Assembly (NCBI GenBank): GCA_007859745.1
Contig: SMLU01000001.1
Span: 1,116,001 to 1,180,000 of the forward strand
Length of the DNA: 64,000 nucleotides
Source of the DNA: Phycisphaerae bacterium RAS1
Lineage (GTDB): Bacteria; Planctomycetota; Phycisphaerae; UBA1845; Fen-1342
Reading direction: 5' to 3'
The first letter of the stretch is position 1. Every line of letters begins with the position of its first letter. Below the pieces are notes generated by a model. That model worked only from the letters and a program-made list of their open reading frames with translations. It was not told the DNA's origin and did no database searches. The translations under genes were made by a program, and so were the position numbers. Positions 20,431-56,506 of the stretch are shown one piece after another.

Positions 20431-21225
20431 ATGATGAATAGCTGGATGGTGATGACTGGGATGGCTGGGATGATGGCTTGGCTGCTGCCGTCGTGTACCG
20501 CCACGGCGTTGGCCCAGTGCGGAACGCCGTGCGGCCCGACTCAGCACGCTCAGGTGCGGCAAGAGCAGAAGGCGCCTGCGCCGGCGGCGGACGCCGCGCA
20601 GCGCACGCCGGGAAAGACAAACGTCGAGCGCCAGTCACTGCCGCCGTGCCCGGTCACAGGCGATCCGATCGTTCTGTCAATCCGGACGATGACAGATGGC
20701 GGCCCCGTGTATTTCTCGTCGGAAGCGGCACGCGATCGATTCAACGCCGATCCGACGAAGTACACCGAGAATGCAGCAGCTCAGCGCGACGCACTCAAGA
20801 AGCTCCCGCGTGTGCAAGTAAACTGCCCCGTGACGGGCAATCAGATCGACGGGAAGACGGAGATCTTCTTCGAGGGTAAGGTGGTCGATTTCTGCTGCAA
20901 GAACTGCGTGTCGAAGTACGATAGCGATCCGGAGAAGTACGCGGCCAGGCTGGAGGCCGGCTACACGTATCAGACGAACTGCCCCGTATCCGGCGACGCG
21001 ATCAATCCCACCGTCTACGCGGAGATCAGCGACGACCTGCGCGTCTACTTTTGCTGCGCCGGCGACCGCGACGCGTTCATGAAGGGGTTGCGCAATCGGC
21101 CCGCGGCGACCACCAGGCCGGCGCGCGAGCCAATCTCGCCGCAAGTCGACACCGGCAAGCGCGGTGAGAAGGGCGACGAGAAAAAGCCCTCCGGCCACGA
21201 GGGGCATGGCGGCTCGCACCCGTAA
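20431..21225 (+). CDS. exported protein with three YHS-like metal modules
   Basis: A signal peptide (residues 1-29) leads to three repeated modules, each starting CPVTG or CPVSG: near residues 72, 132 and 188. The second and third continue with a second Cys site (DFCCKNC near 154; YFCCAGD near 210). This matches YHS-type domains, found in copper transport and metal-handling proteins. The first module lacks the second Cys site. The tail is rich in Lys, His and Gly. GAGGAG precedes the ATG by about 10 bases. It sits 69 bases upstream of the predicted selenoprotein gene and is probably co-transcribed with it. A periplasmic metal-binding role is inferred. Confidence 0.8.
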   Translation: MMNSWMVMTGMAGMMAWLLPSCTATALAQCGTPCGPTQHAQVRQEQKAPAPAADAAQRTPGKTNVERQSLPPCPVTGDPIVLSIRTMTDGGPVYFSSEAARDRFNADPTKYTENAAAQRDALKKLPRVQVNCPVTGNQIDGKTEIFFEGKVVDFCCKNCVSKYDSDPEKYAARLEAGYTYQTNCPVSGDAINPTVYAEISDDLRVYFCCAGDRDAFMKGLRNRPAATTRPAREPISPQVDTGKRGEKGDEKKPSGHEGHGGSHP

Positions 21226-21293: not shown

Positions 21294-21851
21294 ATGAGCT
21301 GGATACGAACCATTCCCGACGACGATGCGACCGGCCTGCTCGCGTCGATCTACGGCGAAGCCCGCGCGAAGTTCGGCCGCGTAATAAATCTGGTCAGGGT
21401 CCAGAGCCTGCGGCCGGAGTCAATGGCGCTGGGGCGGCGGCTCTATCGGCATCTGATGGAGGCCCCCGGCGGCCTGACCAAACTCCAACGAGTGCTCATC
21501 GCGACCGTCGTCTCCAAGACCAACGGCTGCTTCTACTGAATGGAGAGCCACGAGGGCGATCTCCGGTCGGAGATCAACGACGATGCGAGAGTGCGGGCCA
21601 TTCAGGACGACTATCGCCAGGTGGACTTGGGGCCGGCGACTCGCGCCCTGCTAGATTTCGCGGTGAAGCTGACCACGCAACCGCGCGAAATGCACCGCAG
21701 CGACGTTGCGGCGCTGCGACAGGTCGGCTTTTCCGACGAGGACATTCTCGACGCTACTCAGACGGTCGACTACTTCAACTACATCAACCGCGTCATGGAC
21801 GCGCTCGGGATCGCGCCGGAGCAGGACATGCGCTACAAGCCGCGCGAATGA
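21294..21851 (+). CDS. AhpD-like peroxidase-related selenoprotein (in-frame TGA = Sec)
   Basis: The frame encodes one 185-residue protein of the AhpD/peroxidase-related family (CMD fold) if TGA 21537-21539 is read through. The N-terminal part (MSWIRTIPDDDATG, then SKTNGCFY) and the part after TGA (MESHEGDLR to the stop) align continuously with the family, in which the motif is C-x-x-C-x3-H. Here it is Cys79, x, x, TGA at 82, x3, His86, so selenocysteine would replace the resolving redox cysteine. A perfect 7-bp hairpin with loop GGTC starts 18 bases after TGA. The usual family start M[AS]WI fixes ATG 21294; upstream in-frame starts are less likely. Alternatives are a Cys (TGC/TGT) to TGA mutation or two split genes, which fit worse. 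Confidence 0.84.
21558..21575 (+). promoter_or_regulatory. candidate bacterial SECIS hairpin
   Basis: GATCTCC (21558-21564), loop GGTC (21565-21568) and GGAGATC (21569-21575) make a perfect 7-bp stem inside the coding sequence. The loop starts 25 bases after the TGA at 21537-21539, within the distance known for bacterial SECIS elements. Its GGU matches the loop of the E. coli formate dehydrogenase SECIS, where SelB contacts G and U. Confidence 0.78.
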
Positions 21852-27939: not shown

Positions 27940-29913
27940 ATGTCGAATGAAGGAACCGGAGCCCGACCGGCTGGAAAACCGTCGGTACTTAGGCGGGTTT
28001 GGTTGTTCATCGAGATTCTAAACGTCCGGCTTCGATTCATCTTCCTGATGGTCATCGTGGGGTTCGTGGTCGGCTACTGGGAGAACATCACCAATTACTA
28101 CGACCGCTGGCGGCGCCCGGCGCAGGCGGCCGACATGGTCGCCGCCCAGGACATCGAGTTCTACTGCCCGATGCACCCCAACATCATTCGCGCTGAGCCG
28201 GGCAACTGCCCGATCTGCGGAATGCCACTGGCGAAGCGCGCCAAGAGCGGGAAAGCGGAGCTGCCGGAGGGCGTGCTCGCACGACAACATCTCACGCCGC
28301 AGAAAGTGCAGATTGGCCGTATCGCGACGTCGCCGGTGGAGTACCGCTTGCTCAGCCGCGAGGTGCGCACGGTGGGCATCGTTGAGTACGACGAGACGCG
28401 GCGCAAGTTCATCGCCGCTCGGATCAAGGGCCGTATCGACAAGTTGTTCGTCAACTACGTCGGCCAGCACGTCGAGGCGGGCGACCCGCTGGTGTGGATT
28501 TACAGCCCGGAACTACTAACGGCACAGCAGGAACTCCTGACTGCGGCGACTCGACTCAACGAGATTTCAGGAGGGGATCAGTTCGCGGCGCGGACCAGTC
28601 AGTCGCTGCTCGAAGCCTCGAAGCAGAAGTTGCTGCTTTGGGGTATCACGCCTGAGCAAATCGAGACGATTCTGAAGCGTGGCACGACGGAAAACCACCT
28701 GACGATTTTCTCGCCGATCACGGGCTTCGTCACCGAGAAGAAAGTGCTTGAAGGCCATTATGTGGACGAAGGTGGCGACCTCTACACCGTCGCTGACCTG
28801 AGCAATGTCTGGATGCAGGCGAAGATTTTCGAAGATGAAAGTGGCGGCATCCACGTCGGCACGGCGGTCGAAGTCACCAGTACCGCCGATCCCGGGGAGG
28901 TGTTCGCTGGGCGGATCACGTTCATCGCCTACCAGGTCGATCCGGCCACGCGGACGGTCTCGGCCCGTGTCGAAATCGCCAATCCAGACCTGAAGCTCAA
29001 ACCGGGAATGTATGCACATGCGACCATTCGAGTGTCCGTCGGCCAGGTCTCCGAAATCGAGCCGCCTTCGGCTTCTGCACCCGCCACGGCTGAATCGGTA
29101 CGCGAGGCCCACGCCGAAACGGGCGAACTGATTCGTGCGTACCTCGCGCTTTCGGCGGCGTACGTTGCTGACAAGGCCGATCCGACTGCGCTCGCTGAGT
29201 TGGAAACAACAGCGAACGAGCTCGCAAAGCACGCGCACGGCACGATCGCGTCACAGGCGAAAGCAATCGCAGAAGAAGCGGCCAAGCTCAAGGGCAAGGA
29301 TCTGGCGGCGCAGCGCGGGCTCTTCAAGTCCGTAAACGCCAAGGTCATCGAGCTGCTTCGCGGCCAGCCGCCGGCCGGCCAAACGCTCTACGTGGCGTAC
29401 TGCCCGATGGTCGAGGCCGAGTGGGTCCAGAATTCGGAAGGCATCGCCAACCCATACATGGGGAGCGAAATGCCCAAGTGCGGCGTGCTCAGGGGAACGA
29501 TCGCCGCGAAGACGGTTCAGGAGCGGGAACAGTACGTGATGGGCTACTACTGTCCGATTTCGCCCGACCATCTGTTCGAGAAGCCCGAGCTGTGTCCGAT
29601 CGACAAGTTCCCGCTCAGATTCGTTCGCGCCGAAAAGATGCTGGCGGTTCCCGCGTCAGCGGTGATCAACACCGGTACGCGGAAGATCGTCTACCGCGAG
29701 AGTGAGCCGGGAACGTTCGACATGGTGGAGGTGAAGCTGGGCAAGCGCACTGGCGAATTCTATCCGGTGATCTCGGGGATCAACGCCAGCGATCGGGTCG
29801 CAACCGCCGGCGCCTTCCTGGTCGATGCGGAAAACCGGCTGAATCCGGCGGCCAGCGCCCAGTTCTTCGGCGCCAGCGGCGGTCCGCAGCAAGACGGCGG
29901 CCAAAACCACTGA
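27940..29913 (+). CDS. cusB: CusB-type RND adaptor with metal-binding domains
   Basis: Membrane fusion protein for metal efflux. After an N-terminal membrane helix (residues 30-48), a heavy-metal-binding domain is seen (EFYCPMHPNI near 70, CPICGMPLAK near 88). The adaptor core follows: IKGRIDKLFVNYVGQHVEAG near 165, a helical hairpin with Gln and Ala repeats, SPITGFVTEKKVLEGHYVDEG near 253 and AKIFEDE near 300. Late in the protein are two more Cys modules (AYCPMVEAEW near 487; YYCPISPDHL near 531 with CPIDKFPLRF), so it carries three potential sites. At 657 residues it is larger than E. coli CusB. It is followed 72 bases later by the CusA gene. Confidence 0.92.
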   Translation: MSNEGTGARPAGKPSVLRRVWLFIEILNVRLRFIFLMVIVGFVVGYWENITNYYDRWRRPAQAADMVAAQDIEFYCPMHPNIIRAEPGNCPICGMPLAKRAKSGKAELPEGVLARQHLTPQKVQIGRIATSPVEYRLLSREVRTVGIVEYDETRRKFIAARIKGRIDKLFVNYVGQHVEAGDPLVWIYSPELLTAQQELLTAATRLNEISGGDQFAARTSQSLLEASKQKLLLWGITPEQIETILKRGTTENHLTIFSPITGFVTEKKVLEGHYVDEGGDLYTVADLSNVWMQAKIFEDESGGIHVGTAVEVTSTADPGEVFAGRITFIAYQVDPATRTVSARVEIANPDLKLKPGMYAHATIRVSVGQVSEIEPPSASAPATAESVREAHAETGELIRAYLALSAAYVADKADPTALAELETTANELAKHAHGTIASQAKAIAEEAAKLKGKDLAAQRGLFKSVNAKVIELLRGQPPAGQTLYVAYCPMVEAEWVQNSEGIANPYMGSEMPKCGVLRGTIAAKTVQEREQYVMGYYCPISPDHLFEKPELCPIDKFPLRFVRAEKMLAVPASAVINTGTRKIVYRESEPGTFDMVEVKLGKRTGEFYPVISGINASDRVATAGAFLVDAENRLNPAASAQFFGASGGPQQDGGQNH

Positions 29914-29984
29914 ACGAAGCGCCGGCAATCGAAGCCGCCAGCCGCGGCCCGGTGGTCGTGGCATCCTCGAACTGAGAAACTTCC

Positions 29985-32900
29985 ATGATTCCGCGCATCA
30001 TCGAATTCTGCATCCGCAATCGCTTCATCGTGATCCTGCTCACGGCCGCCGTGGCGGTCTGGGGCGTGTATTGCGTGATGAAGACGCCGATCGACGCGAT
30101 CCCCGACCTGTCTGAAAACCAGGTGATCGTCTTTACCGACTGGATGGGGCGTAGCCCGCAGGAAATTGACGACCAGATTACGTACCCGCTGTCGGTCAAT
30201 TTACAGGGCTTGGCGGGCGTGAAGTCGATCCGCTCGGCGAGCGAGTTCAACTTCTCGATGATCAACATCATCTTTGACGAGCACACCGACTTCTACTTCG
30301 CCCGCACGCGCGTGCTGGAGCGGCTGAATATCGCGAGCACGATTTTGCCGCCGGGCGTCGTCCCATACCTGGCGCCGGACGCAACCGCGCTCGGTCAGAT
30401 CTTCTGGTACACCGTCGAAGGCGACGGCTACAGCGTCGATGAGCTGCGCGCCATCCAGGACTGGTACGTTCGCTACCAGCTTTACGTGCCGGGCGTCGCG
30501 CAAGTCTCCAGCGTCGGCGGGTTCGTGCGTGAGTACCAGATCGACTTGGACCCAGACAAGCTGCGCGCCTATGACCTCTCGCTCGGCTCTGTGTTCAACG
30601 CCGTGGCCCGCAGCAACATCGCCGTGGGCGGGAAGGTCTACTTCGAAACCAACGCGGAATACCTGATCCGTGGCGTCGGTTGGCTGCGCGGCACGGACGA
30701 CCTCGAAAAAGTCATCGTTGCGGAGCGAAACGGCGTCCCGATCTACGTCCGCAACGTCGCATCCGTTCAACTCGGCCCGGAATATCGCCGCAGCATGCTC
30801 GAAAAGAATGGCGGTGAGGCCGTCGGCGGCGTGGTCATGATGCGGTTCGCTGAGAACCCGCTGACGGTCACCAAGGCGATCAAGCAGCGCATCGAACAGC
30901 TTCAGCCCGGTCTGCCGAAGGGCGTGCGGATCGTGCCCTTCTACGATCGCACACGCCTAATCGAGGGCGCGATACATACGCTCGTCGGAACGCTCAAAGA
31001 AGAAATCATCATTGCCAGCATCGCGATCCTGCTGATCCTGACGCACGTCCGCAGCGCCATCGTTGTTTGCAGCACTCTCCCGCTCGCGGTGCTGATCTCG
31101 TTCATCCTGATGTACTACCTGGGCATCCCCAGCAACATCATGTCGCTCTCGGGCATCGCGATTTCAATCGGAATCCTGGTCGACGCCGCCGTCGTCATGG
31201 TCGAGAACGCCACGCATGAGCTGACACGTCAATACGGCAAGGAGAAAGTGCGCGGCGATACGACCGAGGTCGTGGTCAAGGCCTGCCGGCTGGTTGGCAA
31301 GCCGATCTTCTTCGCCGTCATGATCATGCTGATCTCCTTCCTGCCGGTGTTCTCGCTCGGCGGGCAGGAAGGCAAGATGTTTCACCCGCTGGCGTTCACC
31401 AAGTCGTTCGCAATGGTCGGGGTGGCGATTCTGGCGATCACGTTCGTCCCGGCCATCATCCCAATCCTCATCAGAGGCCGTCTACGCAGCGAGGAAGAGA
31501 ATTGGATCGTCCGCAGCTTCATCCACATTTACAAGCCCGTCCTGACGTGGCTCATGCGCGTCCCGGCCGCCGGCATCTGGTTCGTCGGCTTCCTGTTTCT
31601 CATCGGCGCTGGCTTTGTCGGCAGCGACTTTCTGTTTCTGATCGTCCTGGCGCTGGCGTTGTTCTTCGGCACCGTGTTCTTCCGCCGCATTCCCAGCAAG
31701 GCGGTTGCGTTCTCGCTCCTGGCGGCGACGGCGCTGTGGTCGTGGAACTTCCCCAAGCTGGGGCGCGAGTTCATGCCGCCGCTGGATGAGGGCAGCATCC
31801 TGGACATGCCGGTGACGGTTCCGCGCGTGTCCGTCGCGCAGGCGGGCGACGACATCCGCGTCCGCGACGCCATCATGGGCGCCTTCCCCGAGGTGGACCA
31901 GGTCGTCGGAAAGGTCGGCCGCGCCGACACGCCCACCGATCCGTCCGGGATCGACATGGTCGAAACCGTCGTCACGCTTCGGCCGAAGGAGTGGTGGCCC
32001 AAGCGGAAGATCCAGTTCTCCGATGCACTGGCGGAAGCCAAGGAACTGCTCTCCGCGATGCAGTCGGCCGGGTTCGTGCGAACCGATTTGAAGCCCGACG
32101 AAGCCGACGGGCTGGTTAATGGTGCCACGATGGACGCAACGGTCGCATTTGATCGCACCATGCGCGACTTGGCGCTCCGGCGACAGAAGGAATATGAGCC
32201 GGTTCTGGCCAAGACGCTGGTCGCAGCCACGCTAAACGACCTGCTCACGCATCTTCGAAGCAAGCACGAGTTGCGTCGCGACCCGACCGCGGCAGAGACG
32301 GATCAACTGGCCGAGCAGCTCGTCAAAGACCACGGCTTGTTGCTCGTCCAGGTGCCTCGGCGTGAAGAAATGAGTAGTCTGCTCTCCGCCGCGATCGATC
32401 ACCTCGCCGCGCTCGGCGTAGTCGAAAAGAAACCGGACCTACTCCTGCTCCCGCAATCTTCGTGGTTGACGATCAAGGACGCGGTGACGACCGCGCTGGG
32501 CGCTGAGAAGGAATCGCTCATTGGGCAGCTTTTTGAGCGCTTCGACGCGCGGCTCAGTGATGAGTGGGTCAAGCGCGTCAAGGTATTGAACTGGGAGCTG
32601 GAGGACCACGCCGGCGGAAGCATGGTTTGGGTGCTGCTCGACGCACTTCGCAAGCACGCGGCCGAAAGCGGAGCGGAGGTCAAAGCGCCGAGCGACGATG
32701 ATCTGCGCCCCATCCGCGAGCAGAGCGAAAAGGCATTCGCAAAGAGCATCTTCTTGTGGCACAAGCTGAAGTCCGACCTGATCAAGGAAATGGACAGCGA
32801 GCTCCAGATGCCCGGATGGGGCAACATCTGGACGCAGCCCATCATCAACCGTGTCGACATGCTCGCGACCGGCGTTCGCACGATGATCGGCGTCAAGGTC

Positions 32901-34175
32901 TTCGGTCCGCGCCAGGAGGACACGACCGACGAAGTCATCGAGGATGGCGTCAAGAAACTCGTCATGCGCGAGCCGGGCATTCAGGGGATCGCCAACCAGA
33001 TCGCCGGCGTGATGCGCGGGATTCGCGGCGCCGTGGATGTGTTCCCCGACCAGATCGTCGGCCGCAGCTACCTTCAAATCGACATCAACCGCGAGAAGGC
33101 CGCCCGCTACGGCGTGAACGTGTCCGAGATCCAGGAGGCCATCGAAGTCGCGATGGGCGGCAAGACCATCACGGTCACGGTCGAAGGACGCCGGCGCTTC
33201 CCGGTCCGCGTTCGCTACGCGCGCGATTTCTGGCAGACCGAAGATGCCCTGCGCCGCATACTCGTCACCGGTCGGCGCGGCGTCGCGCCGGCACAATCCG
33301 GGGACGCCGCGATGGCCTCCGCGGCACCCGGCATGGGGACAGATGGCGGCGAGATGGCCGGCGGCGAGACCTATCAAATCCCGATTACGGAGGTCGCGGA
33401 CATCAAGGTCGTTGAGGGGCCGAGCGTAATCAAGAGCGAGAACGGCATGCTGCGGGCGTACGTCCAGCTCAACGTCCGCGACCGCGACATCGTCGGCTTC
33501 GTCGAGGAGGCTCAACAGGCGGTCGGGGAGACGGTGAAGCTGCCGGCCGGCTTCTTCATCGAATGGAGCGGACAGTTCGAGCACCAGATTCGGGCCAAGA
33601 AGACGCTCCAGGTCGTCTTCCCGATGGTGATCCTGCTCATCTTCGTGATCCTCTTCATGACGTTCAATGACGTTCGCGACGCGCTGCTCATCATCCTCGC
33701 GGTGCCCGGCGCGCTGGTCGGGGGCGTGATCTTCCAGAGCCTGTTTGGCTTCAACTTCAGCGTGGCCGTCTGGGTCGGCTACATCGCCTGCTTCGGCATG
33801 GCCACACAGACCGGCATCGTCATGCTGGTCTACCTGCACGACGCGATCAACACCCGCGGCGGGTTGTCCAAGATTGCGTCGTTGACGGAGCTGAGGGACG
33901 CGATCATCACCGGCGCCGTCCACCGCCTGCGTCCCAAGCTCATGACCGAGGGCGTGGCGATCGTCGGCCTTATGCCGATGCTGTGGGCCACGGGCGTTGG
34001 GGCGGAAGTGATGAGACCGATGGTCGCTCCCGTGATCGGCGGACTGCTCGTGGCGGACGAGGTCATCGACCTGCTGCTTCCGGTGATTTTCAACTGGTAC
34101 CAATCACGACGATGGCTACGTTTGCATGGCCACAGCGCTTCCAACCCAACGATGCCTGGCGTCGGCGTGGTCTGA
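29985..34175 (+). CDS. cusA: oversized CusA-type heavy-metal RND pump
   Basis: RND pump of the Cu/Ag subgroup. The N-terminal helix, the TPIDAIPDLSENQVIVFT start of the first loop and the proton-relay helix GILVDAAVVMVENATHEL (near 400) are conserved. With 1396 residues it is about 350 longer than E. coli CusA. The main extra part lies at residues about 675-930, just after VETVVTLRPKEWWP and before LIKEMDSELQMPGWG, a helical, charged insertion in the second periplasmic loop. Extra hydrophobic helices occur near 520-580, and a Gly/Met-rich loop lies near 1105-1130. It pairs with the CusB gene upstream. The insertion may contact the adaptor's extra metal modules, which is inference. Confidence 0.92.
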   Translation: MIPRIIEFCIRNRFIVILLTAAVAVWGVYCVMKTPIDAIPDLSENQVIVFTDWMGRSPQEIDDQITYPLSVNLQGLAGVKSIRSASEFNFSMINIIFDEHTDFYFARTRVLERLNIASTILPPGVVPYLAPDATALGQIFWYTVEGDGYSVDELRAIQDWYVRYQLYVPGVAQVSSVGGFVREYQIDLDPDKLRAYDLSLGSVFNAVARSNIAVGGKVYFETNAEYLIRGVGWLRGTDDLEKVIVAERNGVPIYVRNVASVQLGPEYRRSMLEKNGGEAVGGVVMMRFAENPLTVTKAIKQRIEQLQPGLPKGVRIVPFYDRTRLIEGAIHTLVGTLKEEIIIASIAILLILTHVRSAIVVCSTLPLAVLISFILMYYLGIPSNIMSLSGIAISIGILVDAAVVMVENATHELTRQYGKEKVRGDTTEVVVKACRLVGKPIFFAVMIMLISFLPVFSLGGQEGKMFHPLAFTKSFAMVGVAILAITFVPAIIPILIRGRLRSEEENWIVRSFIHIYKPVLTWLMRVPAAGIWFVGFLFLIGAGFVGSDFLFLIVLALALFFGTVFFRRIPSKAVAFSLLAATALWSWNFPKLGREFMPPLDEGSILDMPVTVPRVSVAQAGDDIRVRDAIMGAFPEVDQVVGKVGRADTPTDPSGIDMVETVVTLRPKEWWPKRKIQFSDALAEAKELLSAMQSAGFVRTDLKPDEADGLVNGATMDATVAFDRTMRDLALRRQKEYEPVLAKTLVAATLNDLLTHLRSKHELRRDPTAAETDQLAEQLVKDHGLLLVQVPRREEMSSLLSAAIDHLAALGVVEKKPDLLLLPQSSWLTIKDAVTTALGAEKESLIGQLFERFDARLSDEWVKRVKVLNWELEDHAGGSMVWVLLDALRKHAAESGAEVKAPSDDDLRPIREQSEKAFAKSIFLWHKLKSDLIKEMDSELQMPGWGNIWTQPIINRVDMLATGVRTMIGVKVFGPRQEDTTDEVIEDGVKKLVMREPGIQGIANQIAGVMRGIRGAVDVFPDQIVGRSYLQIDINREKAARYGVNVSEIQEAIEVAMGGKTITVTVEGRRRFPVRVRYARDFWQTEDALRRILVTGRRGVAPAQSGDAAMASAAPGMGTDGGEMAGGETYQIPITEVADIKVVEGPSVIKSENGMLRAYVQLNVRDRDIVGFVEEAQQAVGETVKLPAGFFIEWSGQFEHQIRAKKTLQVVFPMVILLIFVILFMTFNDVRDALLIILAVPGALVGGVIFQSLFGFNFSVAVWVGYIACFGMATQTGIVMLVYLHDAINTRGGLSKIASLTELRDAIITGAVHRLRPKLMTEGVAIVGLMPMLWATGVGAEVMRPMVAPVIGGLLVADEVIDLLLPVIFNWYQSRRWLRLHGHSASNPTMPGVGVV

Positions 34176-34601
34176 ATTGACAAATGCGGCCGTATTCGTG
34201 CGGAAACTCGTCGCGAGAGCCGCAACGAGCGGTGGTCGACTTGAGAGCTGTTACTTCGGATTCCAGTTCAATGGCCGGTGACACAACCGGCGTCGCAGCA
34301 AGGCGTGAAACAGCCATACGAAATAACTCCGCCAGTCACGGCACAGGCGGGTAGTCGGTTACACGTGCCCTCTCGTTGTCGGTTTCGACGTGCGCGATTC
34401 GGTCGCGCTGGTTTCGATGGTCCCGTCGTTCGGCCATGGGATGTCTGGAACCCGAGACACCATTCTGGTCAGGTCACATGCCCCGAGCGGCCGGATGACT
34501 CCCCGAGCCTTCCCCTGGTCTAGCCCGCGAGAATTTTGGCTCCATACCCGCCTTGCCCGGCTGGTAGAATGACAGCTTGGCCACGGACAGGAGGTACAAA
34601 G
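34176..34601. other. intergenic stretch before the copper radical oxidase gene
   Basis: 426 bases without a supported gene. The right end has AGGAGG about 9 bases before ATG 34602. No hairpin with a U run and no clear promoter were seen. Confidence 0.5.
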
Positions 34602-36341
34602 ATGGCTCACAAGTTGACGCGCCTTTTTTGGCTACTCCCGGTGCTGGTTTCGCCGCTTCCTGCTCAGCCCCCGTTGGACGCGATTCCTGCCGGACCTGCG
34701 ATCTCGCTCGGAATCATCCGTGGCACGGTGGCCGTTGGCGCGAGTCCCGTGAGCAACGCGCGCGTAATGGTCTTTGTGCCTTCATTGGCCTATTTTCGTG
34801 AGGCCCGCACGAACGCGATCGGCCGGTACGCGATCAAAGGCGTGCCTTCGGGCGCTTATCGCCTTGGCGTGGCGGCGCGCGACTTCGACTATCAGGAAAT
34901 CGCAATTGAGATTTCGGGTGGCATACTGCAACGCGAGTTCACTCTCGCGCCGGAAACCGAACCGGGGCGCTGGGACGTCATCGGGAACACTGCGGGCGAG
35001 TTCTTCGACGCCAGCGACATCGGCATCCTGCTTGCCGACGGGCGGATCATGTACTGCCACGACACGATCACGCCTGTGATCTTCGACCCCGCGACCGGTC
35101 AGTCGTTCGTAGCGGCCGGATCGGACCTGCCACAGGGGTGCATGAACATCATGCTGCTGCCCGACGGACGCCCGATTTTCGTAGGTGGGCAGCCCGGCAG
35201 CGACCCTGGTCAGTTTCGCAATGCCGTGCGATATGTGAAAGCATACAACCCCGTCGCCGACACATGGGAGCGATTCGCCGATCTGCTCAACCCCACCGGG
35301 CGCTGGTACCCCGGCATGGCGCGCCTGGCTGACGGATCGCTACTAGCGATGGGCGGCGGCACGCGGCCAAACGCGGTTCGCACCGCCACGTGTGAACGGC
35401 TCAACCTCGCGACGATGACGTGGTCGTGGACCGGTTCGATGATCAACCCGTCGGAGTTTTCGCCGTGCGCGCTGCTCTACACCGGTGAAGTGCTGGCGAC
35501 GTGGAATCCGCCACAGCTCTACAACCCGACGACCGGAGAATGGAGGCTGACCGGCGCCTTCAACCAGCCGGTGCGCGGCTGGCCCGACCACTCCGACCAC
35601 TCGCTCATCGTGCTCGCGGACGGACGTGCCGCGGCCATCGGAATCGACCGTGCGAACGGCGGCGCCTATACGGTCATGAGCGAGATTTACGACCCGGCGA
35701 CGGAATCATGGTCGCTCGGTAGCAGCCCAGCGCTCCTGCGCGAGAAGTCGGAGGTCGTGCCGCTCCCCGACGGGCGCGTGCTCGTCGCGGCCGGGGACAC
35801 CGAGCTCGCCAACCCCGGCGTGCCGCACGTCAACGGCGTGGTGAAATGGACTGACTTGTATGAGCCCGCGACCGGTGTGTGGCGACGTATGGCCGACATG
35901 GGGCAGTTCCGTGAATACCACGCGGTAACCTTGCTGGTTCCTGACGGCCGCGTGCTGACCACCGGCGGCACCGTCATCGACTTCGGGAACCCGCCCAACT
36001 CGGCCGACGTGGAGGCATTCAGCCCGCCATACCTGTTCCGCGGCGTCCGTCCACAGATCGCGAATCTGTCTGACGCGGTCGTTGACCGCGGAAGCAATTT
36101 GACGCTGACCATCGTCCCAGCGATCCGACTTACCAGTGCGGTTCTCGTGGGGACGCAGGCGACCACTCATTGGGTGGACGCCGGTATTCCGCGCCGCGTC
36201 GTGCTGTCCGTGCAACAGTCTGGTGCCAATGCGAGCGTGACGCTGCCGACAGATCCGAATGTCCTGCCACTCGGGCACTACATGCTCTTCGCGATGGTGG
36301 ACGACAGTCCCTCGGTCGCGCGCATGATCGAGGTCCGCTGA
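34602..36341 (+). CDS. galactose-oxidase-like copper radical oxidase
   Basis: A signal peptide (residues 1-22) is followed by a small carboxypeptidase-regulatory-like beta domain (35-115), a kelch propeller and a C-terminal E-set domain (DUF1929). All five residues of a galactose/glyoxal oxidase copper site can be assigned: Cys180 (QGCMN), Tyr236 (RWYPG), Tyr439 and His440 (REYHAV) and His523 (TTHWVD). So a Cys-Tyr radical cofactor and oxidation of an alcohol or aldehyde with H2O2 production are likely. Repeated LADGR or LPDGR turns mark the kelch blades. AGGAGG precedes ATG 34602. It lies downstream of the CusBA genes, which fits a copper enzyme, but the substrate is unknown. Confidence 0.86.
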   Translation: MAHKLTRLFWLLPVLVSPLPAQPPLDAIPAGPAISLGIIRGTVAVGASPVSNARVMVFVPSLAYFREARTNAIGRYAIKGVPSGAYRLGVAARDFDYQEIAIEISGGILQREFTLAPETEPGRWDVIGNTAGEFFDASDIGILLADGRIMYCHDTITPVIFDPATGQSFVAAGSDLPQGCMNIMLLPDGRPIFVGGQPGSDPGQFRNAVRYVKAYNPVADTWERFADLLNPTGRWYPGMARLADGSLLAMGGGTRPNAVRTATCERLNLATMTWSWTGSMINPSEFSPCALLYTGEVLATWNPPQLYNPTTGEWRLTGAFNQPVRGWPDHSDHSLIVLADGRAAAIGIDRANGGAYTVMSEIYDPATESWSLGSSPALLREKSEVVPLPDGRVLVAAGDTELANPGVPHVNGVVKWTDLYEPATGVWRRMADMGQFREYHAVTLLVPDGRVLTTGGTVIDFGNPPNSADVEAFSPPYLFRGVRPQIANLSDAVVDRGSNLTLTIVPAIRLTSAVLVGTQATTHWVDAGIPRRVVLSVQQSGANASVTLPTDPNVLPLGHYMLFAMVDDSPSVARMIEVR

Positions 36342-55289: not shown

Positions 55290-55448
55290 TTCCCAAGCTG
55301 GACGTCGAGGGTTCGAATCCCCTCGCCCGCTTTGATATAATCCGATAGCCGATCGCAACTTGCGAACCGGCCCGCGCTGGGCTGTGCGGCTCGGGAAGCT
55401 CGAAAACGAGGGTAATTTACCCCCGTCGTGCTTCCAGGAGCCAGCCAT
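55290..55448 (+). repeat. att-C: tRNA-Gly(CCC) 3' part plus integrase leader
   Basis: The same 50-base tRNA part and 109-base leader as att-A, with about nine differences over 159 bases. The leader contains TTTGATATAAT soon after the tRNA end, a possible -10 box, and ends in the integrase start codon. One T-arm pair is broken in this copy. No 5' tRNA half is upstream. Confidence 0.75.
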
Positions 55449-56110
55449 GCCGGCCAGCACGAAACCCCGCATTCCCGTCTACCGTCACCACAAGCCGTCC
55501 GGACTCGCGTCGGTGCGCGTCGAGGGTCGCGTCATCTACCTCGGCCCGCACGACACGCCCGAGAGCCGCGCGGAATACAAGCGGGTGATCGCTGAGTGAC
55601 TTGCAAATCACAAGGCCGAACCGACCGGCTTGAACGGCCACGGGCAAGCGACGAGTCGGGTGGTGGATGAGCTCATCGTGGCCTACCTCGGCTTCGCGAA
55701 ATCATATTACGTCAAGAACGGGACGCTCACGGGCGCGTATCGCAATATCGGTGACGCACTTCGGCCGCTGACGACCCTGTACGGCCGCACCCGCGTTGCC
55801 GACTTCGGCCCATCCGCACTCAAGGCGGTTCGTCAGGCGATGATCGACACTGACCTGTGCCGGCGGACGATCAACAACCGCATCAACCGCATTCGCCGCG
55901 TCTTCAAGTGGGGCGTCGAAAACGAGTTCGTCCCGGCCGACATACTCCATGGGCTCCAAGCCGTCGCACCGCTGAAGTTTGGGAGATGCAACGTCCGGGA
56001 GGCCGAACCCGTGAAGCCAGTGCCCGAAAACCTGATCGAACCAGTTCTCAAACTCGTCGCGCCCCAAGTTGCCGCCATGGTTCGGCCACAGCTTCTGATC
56101 GGGATGCGGC
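55447..56110 (+). pseudogene. planctomycete-type integrase pseudogene
   Basis: The reading frame starts right after the att-C leader with an N-terminal segment common in planctomycete integrases (HHKPSGLASVRVEGR, YLGPHDT, EYKRVIAE). TGA 55597-55599 stands where the family has Trp (IAEWLAN), and the frame then continues LANHKAEPTG to the core-binding domain. It stops being integrase-like just after IGMRPA near 56110, the first catalytic Arg region, where it is joined to a sigma-factor fragment. So it has a nonsense mutation and lacks its catalytic domain. The Trp context rules out Sec. Confidence 0.78.
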
Positions 56111-56111
56111 C

Positions 56112-56506
56112 CGCAGCGGCGGAAGATTCCGGGACTACTTGTTCCGCTGCACCCGAAATTCGGTCAGCGCGTGGAAAGCGCGCTCAAACGGCCCTGTTGT
56201 CGCGCTAGACAAGAGTGACGACGAAGGACCGGCAGCTGCCGCGGTCCAGCCGGACTCGGCTGAATGCGATGCCTGGGAGCAGGAATGGGTCGCGCATCAC
56301 TACCGATGCAGATGGTAGAGCGGACATTTGATGCGCGCTCCGTGCGTGTCTTCAACCGCAGTGTCGCCGGCGCGAGCGTGACCGAGTTGGCGCGCGAATT
56401 CGACATGAGCGAGGCGGCGATTCACCAGCTTCGCCACCGCATCCGCGACCGCATGCAGGAACTGGTCGCCGAGCAGATCCGGCAGGAAGACGCGATCGAT
56501 GGGTGA
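56112..56506 (+). pseudogene. ECF sigma factor fragment with frameshift
   Basis: From GGRFRDYLFRCTRNSVSAW (56115 on) the sequence reads as region 2/3 of a planctomycete ECF sigma factor up to WEQEWVAHHYR near 56310. The frame then shifts; adding one G near 56311 would give YRWQMVERTF and restore one gene. Region 4 follows (TELAREFDMSEAAIHQLRHR, 56383-56442) to TGA 56504-56506. The N-terminal part was lost at the junction with the integrase pseudogene. Confidence 0.68.

Follow-up and report, generated by a model that had tools for sequence, protein, structure and literature searches.

The window analysed here, a 64-kb stretch of DNA (positions 1116001-1180000 of contig C1 of genome G000, which is 5.5 Mb in size and 99% complete), contains a gene for an AhpD-like protein that is preceded by a gene for a YHS-domain protein and followed at a distance by an efflux operon (Table 1). 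The AhpD-like frame begins with an ATG at 21294, ends with a terminal TGA (21849-21851) and contains a single further in-frame TGA, at the codon for residue 82. The read-through product can be written as MSWIRTIPDDD...KTNGCFYU-MESHEGDLRSEI...KPRE. A standard ORF listing presents this gene as two ORFs, the split that the original prediction had expected from normal gene calling.

Table 1. Features of the AhpD-like locus and its surroundings (window coordinates).
Feature	Position	Strand	Remarks
YHS-domain (metal-binding type) protein gene, upstream neighbour	20431..21225	+	68-nt gap to AhpD-like gene
AhpD-like (TIGR01926 / COG2128, 'peroxidase-related enzyme') selenoprotein gene (predicted)	21294..21851	+	185 residues, Sec at 82
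Redox motif codons C79-x-x-U82-x3-H86 (C79-F-Y-U82-M-E-S-H86)	21528..21551	+	C79, Y81, U82 and H86 invariant (n=52)
TGA read as selenocysteine (predicted), U82 of the CFYU motif	21537..21539	+	same codon TGA in 52/52 homologous loci
SECIS hairpin (predicted)	21558..21575	+	7-bp stem GATCTCC/GGAGATC, loop GGTC (21565-21568)
Cus/Czc-type RND efflux operon	27940-34175		permease TIGR00914, 986 bits

The TIGR01926 profile matches the read-through product with 155.8 bits (cut-off 81.8) over positions 1-177 of its 178, and the Pfam CMD profile also matches this product. Each half alone matches TIGR01926 as well, and the two matches are consecutive, covering profile positions 1-81 before the TGA and 85-177 after it. 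This comparison with the peroxidase-related family, proposed together with the original prediction, bears out its statement that the two halves lie in one frame and jointly make a full-length family member. An ATG at 21540, directly after the TGA, could instead open an independent protein of 103 residues. Two separate genes are highly improbable, given that a single family profile covers the two pieces one after the other and that only 12 of the 52 homologs have Met after U (most have Thr or Val), so that most homologs lack this ATG. The gene almost certainly encodes one 185-residue AhpD-like (CMD superfamily) protein with selenocysteine (Sec) at residue 82. Its score exceeds the curated cut-off of TIGR01926 (COG2128) across the full length. 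The TGA codon aligns with the second Cys of the CxYC motif in the solved AhpD-like structures 6k40, 3c1l and 2oyo and with the second Cys of the Cys homologs among loci L067-L075. The in-frame TGA is thus found at the redox-Cys position of the homologs, at the very residue of the C-x-x-C-x3-H motif to which it had been assigned.

The distribution of this TGA was followed in 392 genomes of the phylum by a read-through search whose query had Cys at the TGA position, so that the search was not biased toward TGA. Each of the 116 best matches has one or more in-frame TGA codons; a match without any first appears at an E value of 2e-30 and 34% identity. The same holds for a set of 60 nearer relatives, in which the top matches reach 76% identity and are TGA-bearing in every case. 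When 52 loci, including the window gene, were examined codon by codon, TGA was present at the aligned position in all 52, which are the loci for which this column is established. Random stop positions in homologs had been named as an observation that would speak against Sec; the column is instead identical throughout, in agreement with the claim that a stop at this position is unlikely to arise by chance. It also bears on the rival view of a pseudogene or a sequencing error, in which an ordinary Cys enzyme has acquired a nonsense mutation or had a Cys codon miscalled as TGA. Although TGA is one base away from a Cys codon and the standard listing gives two ORFs, the same-codon TGA recurs at all these loci in independent assemblies, the downstream half is conserved as a protein and the top matches carry TGA 116 times in succession. 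As a general account this explanation is refuted by the homologous sequences, and for the window gene there is hardly any chance that it holds. What looks like a split gene almost certainly encodes a genuine redox protein, and close homologs in the phylum have the Sec form as a rule; consequently, gene calling without Sec handling will truncate the protein.

A tree that includes eight Cys or Leu rows requires four changes between Sec and non-Sec forms, with thin sampling of Cys forms. Locus L070 (G071:C155:92572-94333) contains a tandem AhpD-like pair in which the codon in question is TGA in one copy (CHYU) and TTG (Leu) in the adjacent one; the TTG copy likely represents a loss of Sec in a duplicate. 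Locus L074 (G427:C1:402402-403670) belongs to a Sec paralog group in which about 40 residues are inserted behind position 97. Among IMG/VR viral contigs, a scan gave no relative.

Directly downstream of the TGA the window sequence can form a hairpin with a perfect stem (GATCTCC-GGTC-GGAGATC). In bacterial SECIS elements the apical loop lies 16-37 nt from the UGA (PMC10778597); the loop GGTC contains the G expected in such a loop and starts 25 nt after the TGA, within that range. Homologs possess hairpins in the same place, mostly of the form GAYCTCC-GGTC-GGAGRTC or GACCTC-CGTGCC-GAGGTC. These hairpins are more stable than synonymous-codon recodings of each gene (mean z -1.27, Stouffer z -7.3 for 33 sequences, the latter value taking sequences as independent and ignoring shared ancestry), the mean z of control windows in the same genes being -0.12 (n=254). 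For the named structure 81% of cells are paired, and the covariation score exceeds those of 500 out of 500 shuffles and of all slid registers. Covariation is also seen between the third base of an Asp codon and its pairing partner, the first base of an Ile/Val codon (T-A 11, C-G 33, T-G 1, C-A 1, others 6), with a Fisher p of 1e-8 that likewise treats the sequences as independent, shared ancestry being ignored. The window sequence alone gives a modest fold z-score (-0.8 to -2.1), and in its longer folds an overlapping hairpin competes with the SECIS hairpin. An Rfam scan of the 64-kb window at gathering thresholds gave no match, and the SECIS call is therefore based on comparative evidence.

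The factors needed for Sec insertion are all encoded in the source genome, where selA, selB, selC and selD had been proposed as targets of a search. The selB match (298 bits) includes the C-terminal domain and lies in a single frame of 697 residues, selA gives two matches in one frame (349 and 182 bits), selD scores 380 bits, and the tRNA-Sec (selC) scores 67.8 bits and has the anticodon TCA according to ARAGORN. Since all four are present, the objection that selB and selC might be missing from the genome falls away. Three lines of evidence hence back the designation of the gene as a selenoprotein gene: the Sec machinery of its genome, the position-specific TGA of all homologs read, and a SECIS hairpin that is conserved and covaries. 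A genome-wide reassignment of UGA to Trp, Cys or Gly would account for the open frame, and for nothing further, but the gene's own stop is a TGA, tRNA-Sec, selA and selB are present in the genome, and a conserved hairpin following the codon would be predicted by Sec insertion but not by reassignment; the probability of such a reassignment is vanishingly small. Outside the source genome, selA accompanies the TGA-bearing matches in 22 of 24 relatives; the assemblies of the two in which it was not found are 62% and 80% complete. The gene selA is also found in most relatives without the AhpD-like gene, so that selA alone is no predictor of this gene. The selD match of the source genome (L013, G000:C2:159537-160460) has one in-frame TGA of its own, and its SelD is probably a selenoprotein too.

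Coding scores were used to rank the other frames of the window that a TGA interrupts, and from this ranking the frame at 55597 was taken up. This frame (region 55440-56203) was recognised by eye as resembling a planctomycete site-specific integrase and has no match in Pfam. Its TGA lies outside any Cys motif and the frame does not persist, so that it was rejected as probably plain decay. It shows what decay looks like in this window, in contrast to the AhpD-like gene.

Selenoproteins of the AhpD-like type have been catalogued since 2005, in line with the earlier remark that they had already been predicted in bacteria. AhpD-like CxxU selenoproteins of COG2128 were represented by 27 sequences from the Sargasso Sea in 2005 (PMC1088965), and 299 sequences of 'AhpD-like 1' selenoproteins were reported from GOS in 2008 (PMC2398784). 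The CxxU family (COG2128/TIGR01926) is also listed in PMC9312934 and PMC13188914, a 2026 review has the entry AhpD-like, TIGR01926, CxxU, and accession MCB9421940 is cited for the family in reviews. As far as the accounts of the family in these sources go, the window protein shares with it the family model, the place of Sec in CxxU and a SECIS-like hairpin directly downstream. Since Sec in this family is already on record, the window gene is a further, well-supported member and not a new kind of selenoprotein. It differs in being a planctomycete member that belongs to a clade of 12 sequences without the relay Glu described below. The portions of the four cited works that treat the family contain no discussion of planctomycetes. 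Planctomycete Sel genes and selenoproteins have been described for two Porphyra isolates (PMC4807772), and AhpD does not appear in the main text of that paper. The model NF041238 (AhpD-related (seleno)protein CFYUT) shares the CFYU motif and the core domain with the window protein (58 bits), but its cut-off of 175 bits is far above this score and, with 357 positions, it is about twice as long.

With respect to the mechanism, the cis element, the trans factors and the conservation suggest that SelB and Sec-tRNA(Sec) would bind the hairpin just 3' of the UGA and that selenocysteine would be inserted at residue 82. By homology, Sec82 (corresponding to AhpD Cys133) would attack peroxide or another oxidant and, aided by His86 (AhpD His137), would form a selenenylsulfide with Cys79 (AhpD Cys130), which some reductant would recycle. 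The protein probably works like the Cys enzymes AhpD of Mycobacterium tuberculosis (1GU9) and PA0269 (2O4D), with which it shares the C-x-[HY]-C-x3-H active site; in contrast to them it has Sec for the second Cys and Val67 in the place of Glu118/Glu36, and overall sequence similarity is weak. By this analogy we infer a thiol/selenol oxidoreductase with an AhpD-like working mode, whose role would likely be peroxide detoxification or redox shuttling; peroxidase activity is presumed for TIGR01926 proteins.

PMC3141380 describes an active-site relay of Glu, Cys, His/Tyr, Cys and His for the AhpD of M. tuberculosis and for PA0269; the corresponding places of the window protein are occupied by Val67, Cys79, Tyr81, Sec82 and His86. 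The CxxC motif (here CxxU) and the His are retained, C79, U82 and H86 being invariant in the 52 sequences, whereas the relay Glu (Glu118 in M. tuberculosis, Glu36 in PA0269) is replaced. The protein is filed under TIGR01926 and not under classical AhpD. Because this Glu is Val67, the AhpD chemistry may not apply unchanged. The relay Glu is kept in 40 of the 52 Sec homologs and replaced by Val (11) or Tyr (1) in the others, and these 12 members, which include the window protein, form one clade with a support of 100/100. On our reading, the Cys and Leu homologs keep the relay Glu as well. No mention of its replacement in the 12-member Sec clade was found in the literature; an Agrobacterium protein has His in this place (PMC3141380), so that loss of the relay Glu is not unique to the clade. 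A tentative and rather unlikely explanation is that Sec made the relay Glu dispensable in the planctomycete clade, since a selenol is mostly ionised even in the absence of the relay, leading to an altered, Sec-dependent chemistry with no simple return to Cys. In this clade it can be tested how far the presence of Sec may loosen the constraints on an active site.

The gene had also been placed in a metal-resistance operon. That placement holds only in part: the gene follows a YHS-domain gene, with which it is possibly co-transcribed, and has a Cus-like efflux operon nearby, but it is not demonstrably inside that operon, which lies 6 kb beyond it with opposite-strand genes between. The opposite strand downstream carries a small ORF that contains Cys and a metal-sensor-type regulator of the MerR family, the latter scoring below every equivalog cut-off. 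YHS genes occur within 5 kb of the AhpD-like gene in two close orthologs (L076 and L078), and a metal P-type ATPase or CusB-like gene is found near other orthologs; among the ortholog neighbourhoods compared, no neighbour is kept in most. A link to metal stress is suggested by these neighbours, as a lead and not as a finding. The efflux operon encodes a CusB-like adaptor with a heavy-metal-binding domain and a CusA-like permease of 1396 residues, longer than the 1051-position family model. Adjoining the efflux genes is a gene (34536-36341) for a Kelch/galactose-oxidase-like protein related to the radical copper oxidase GlxA.
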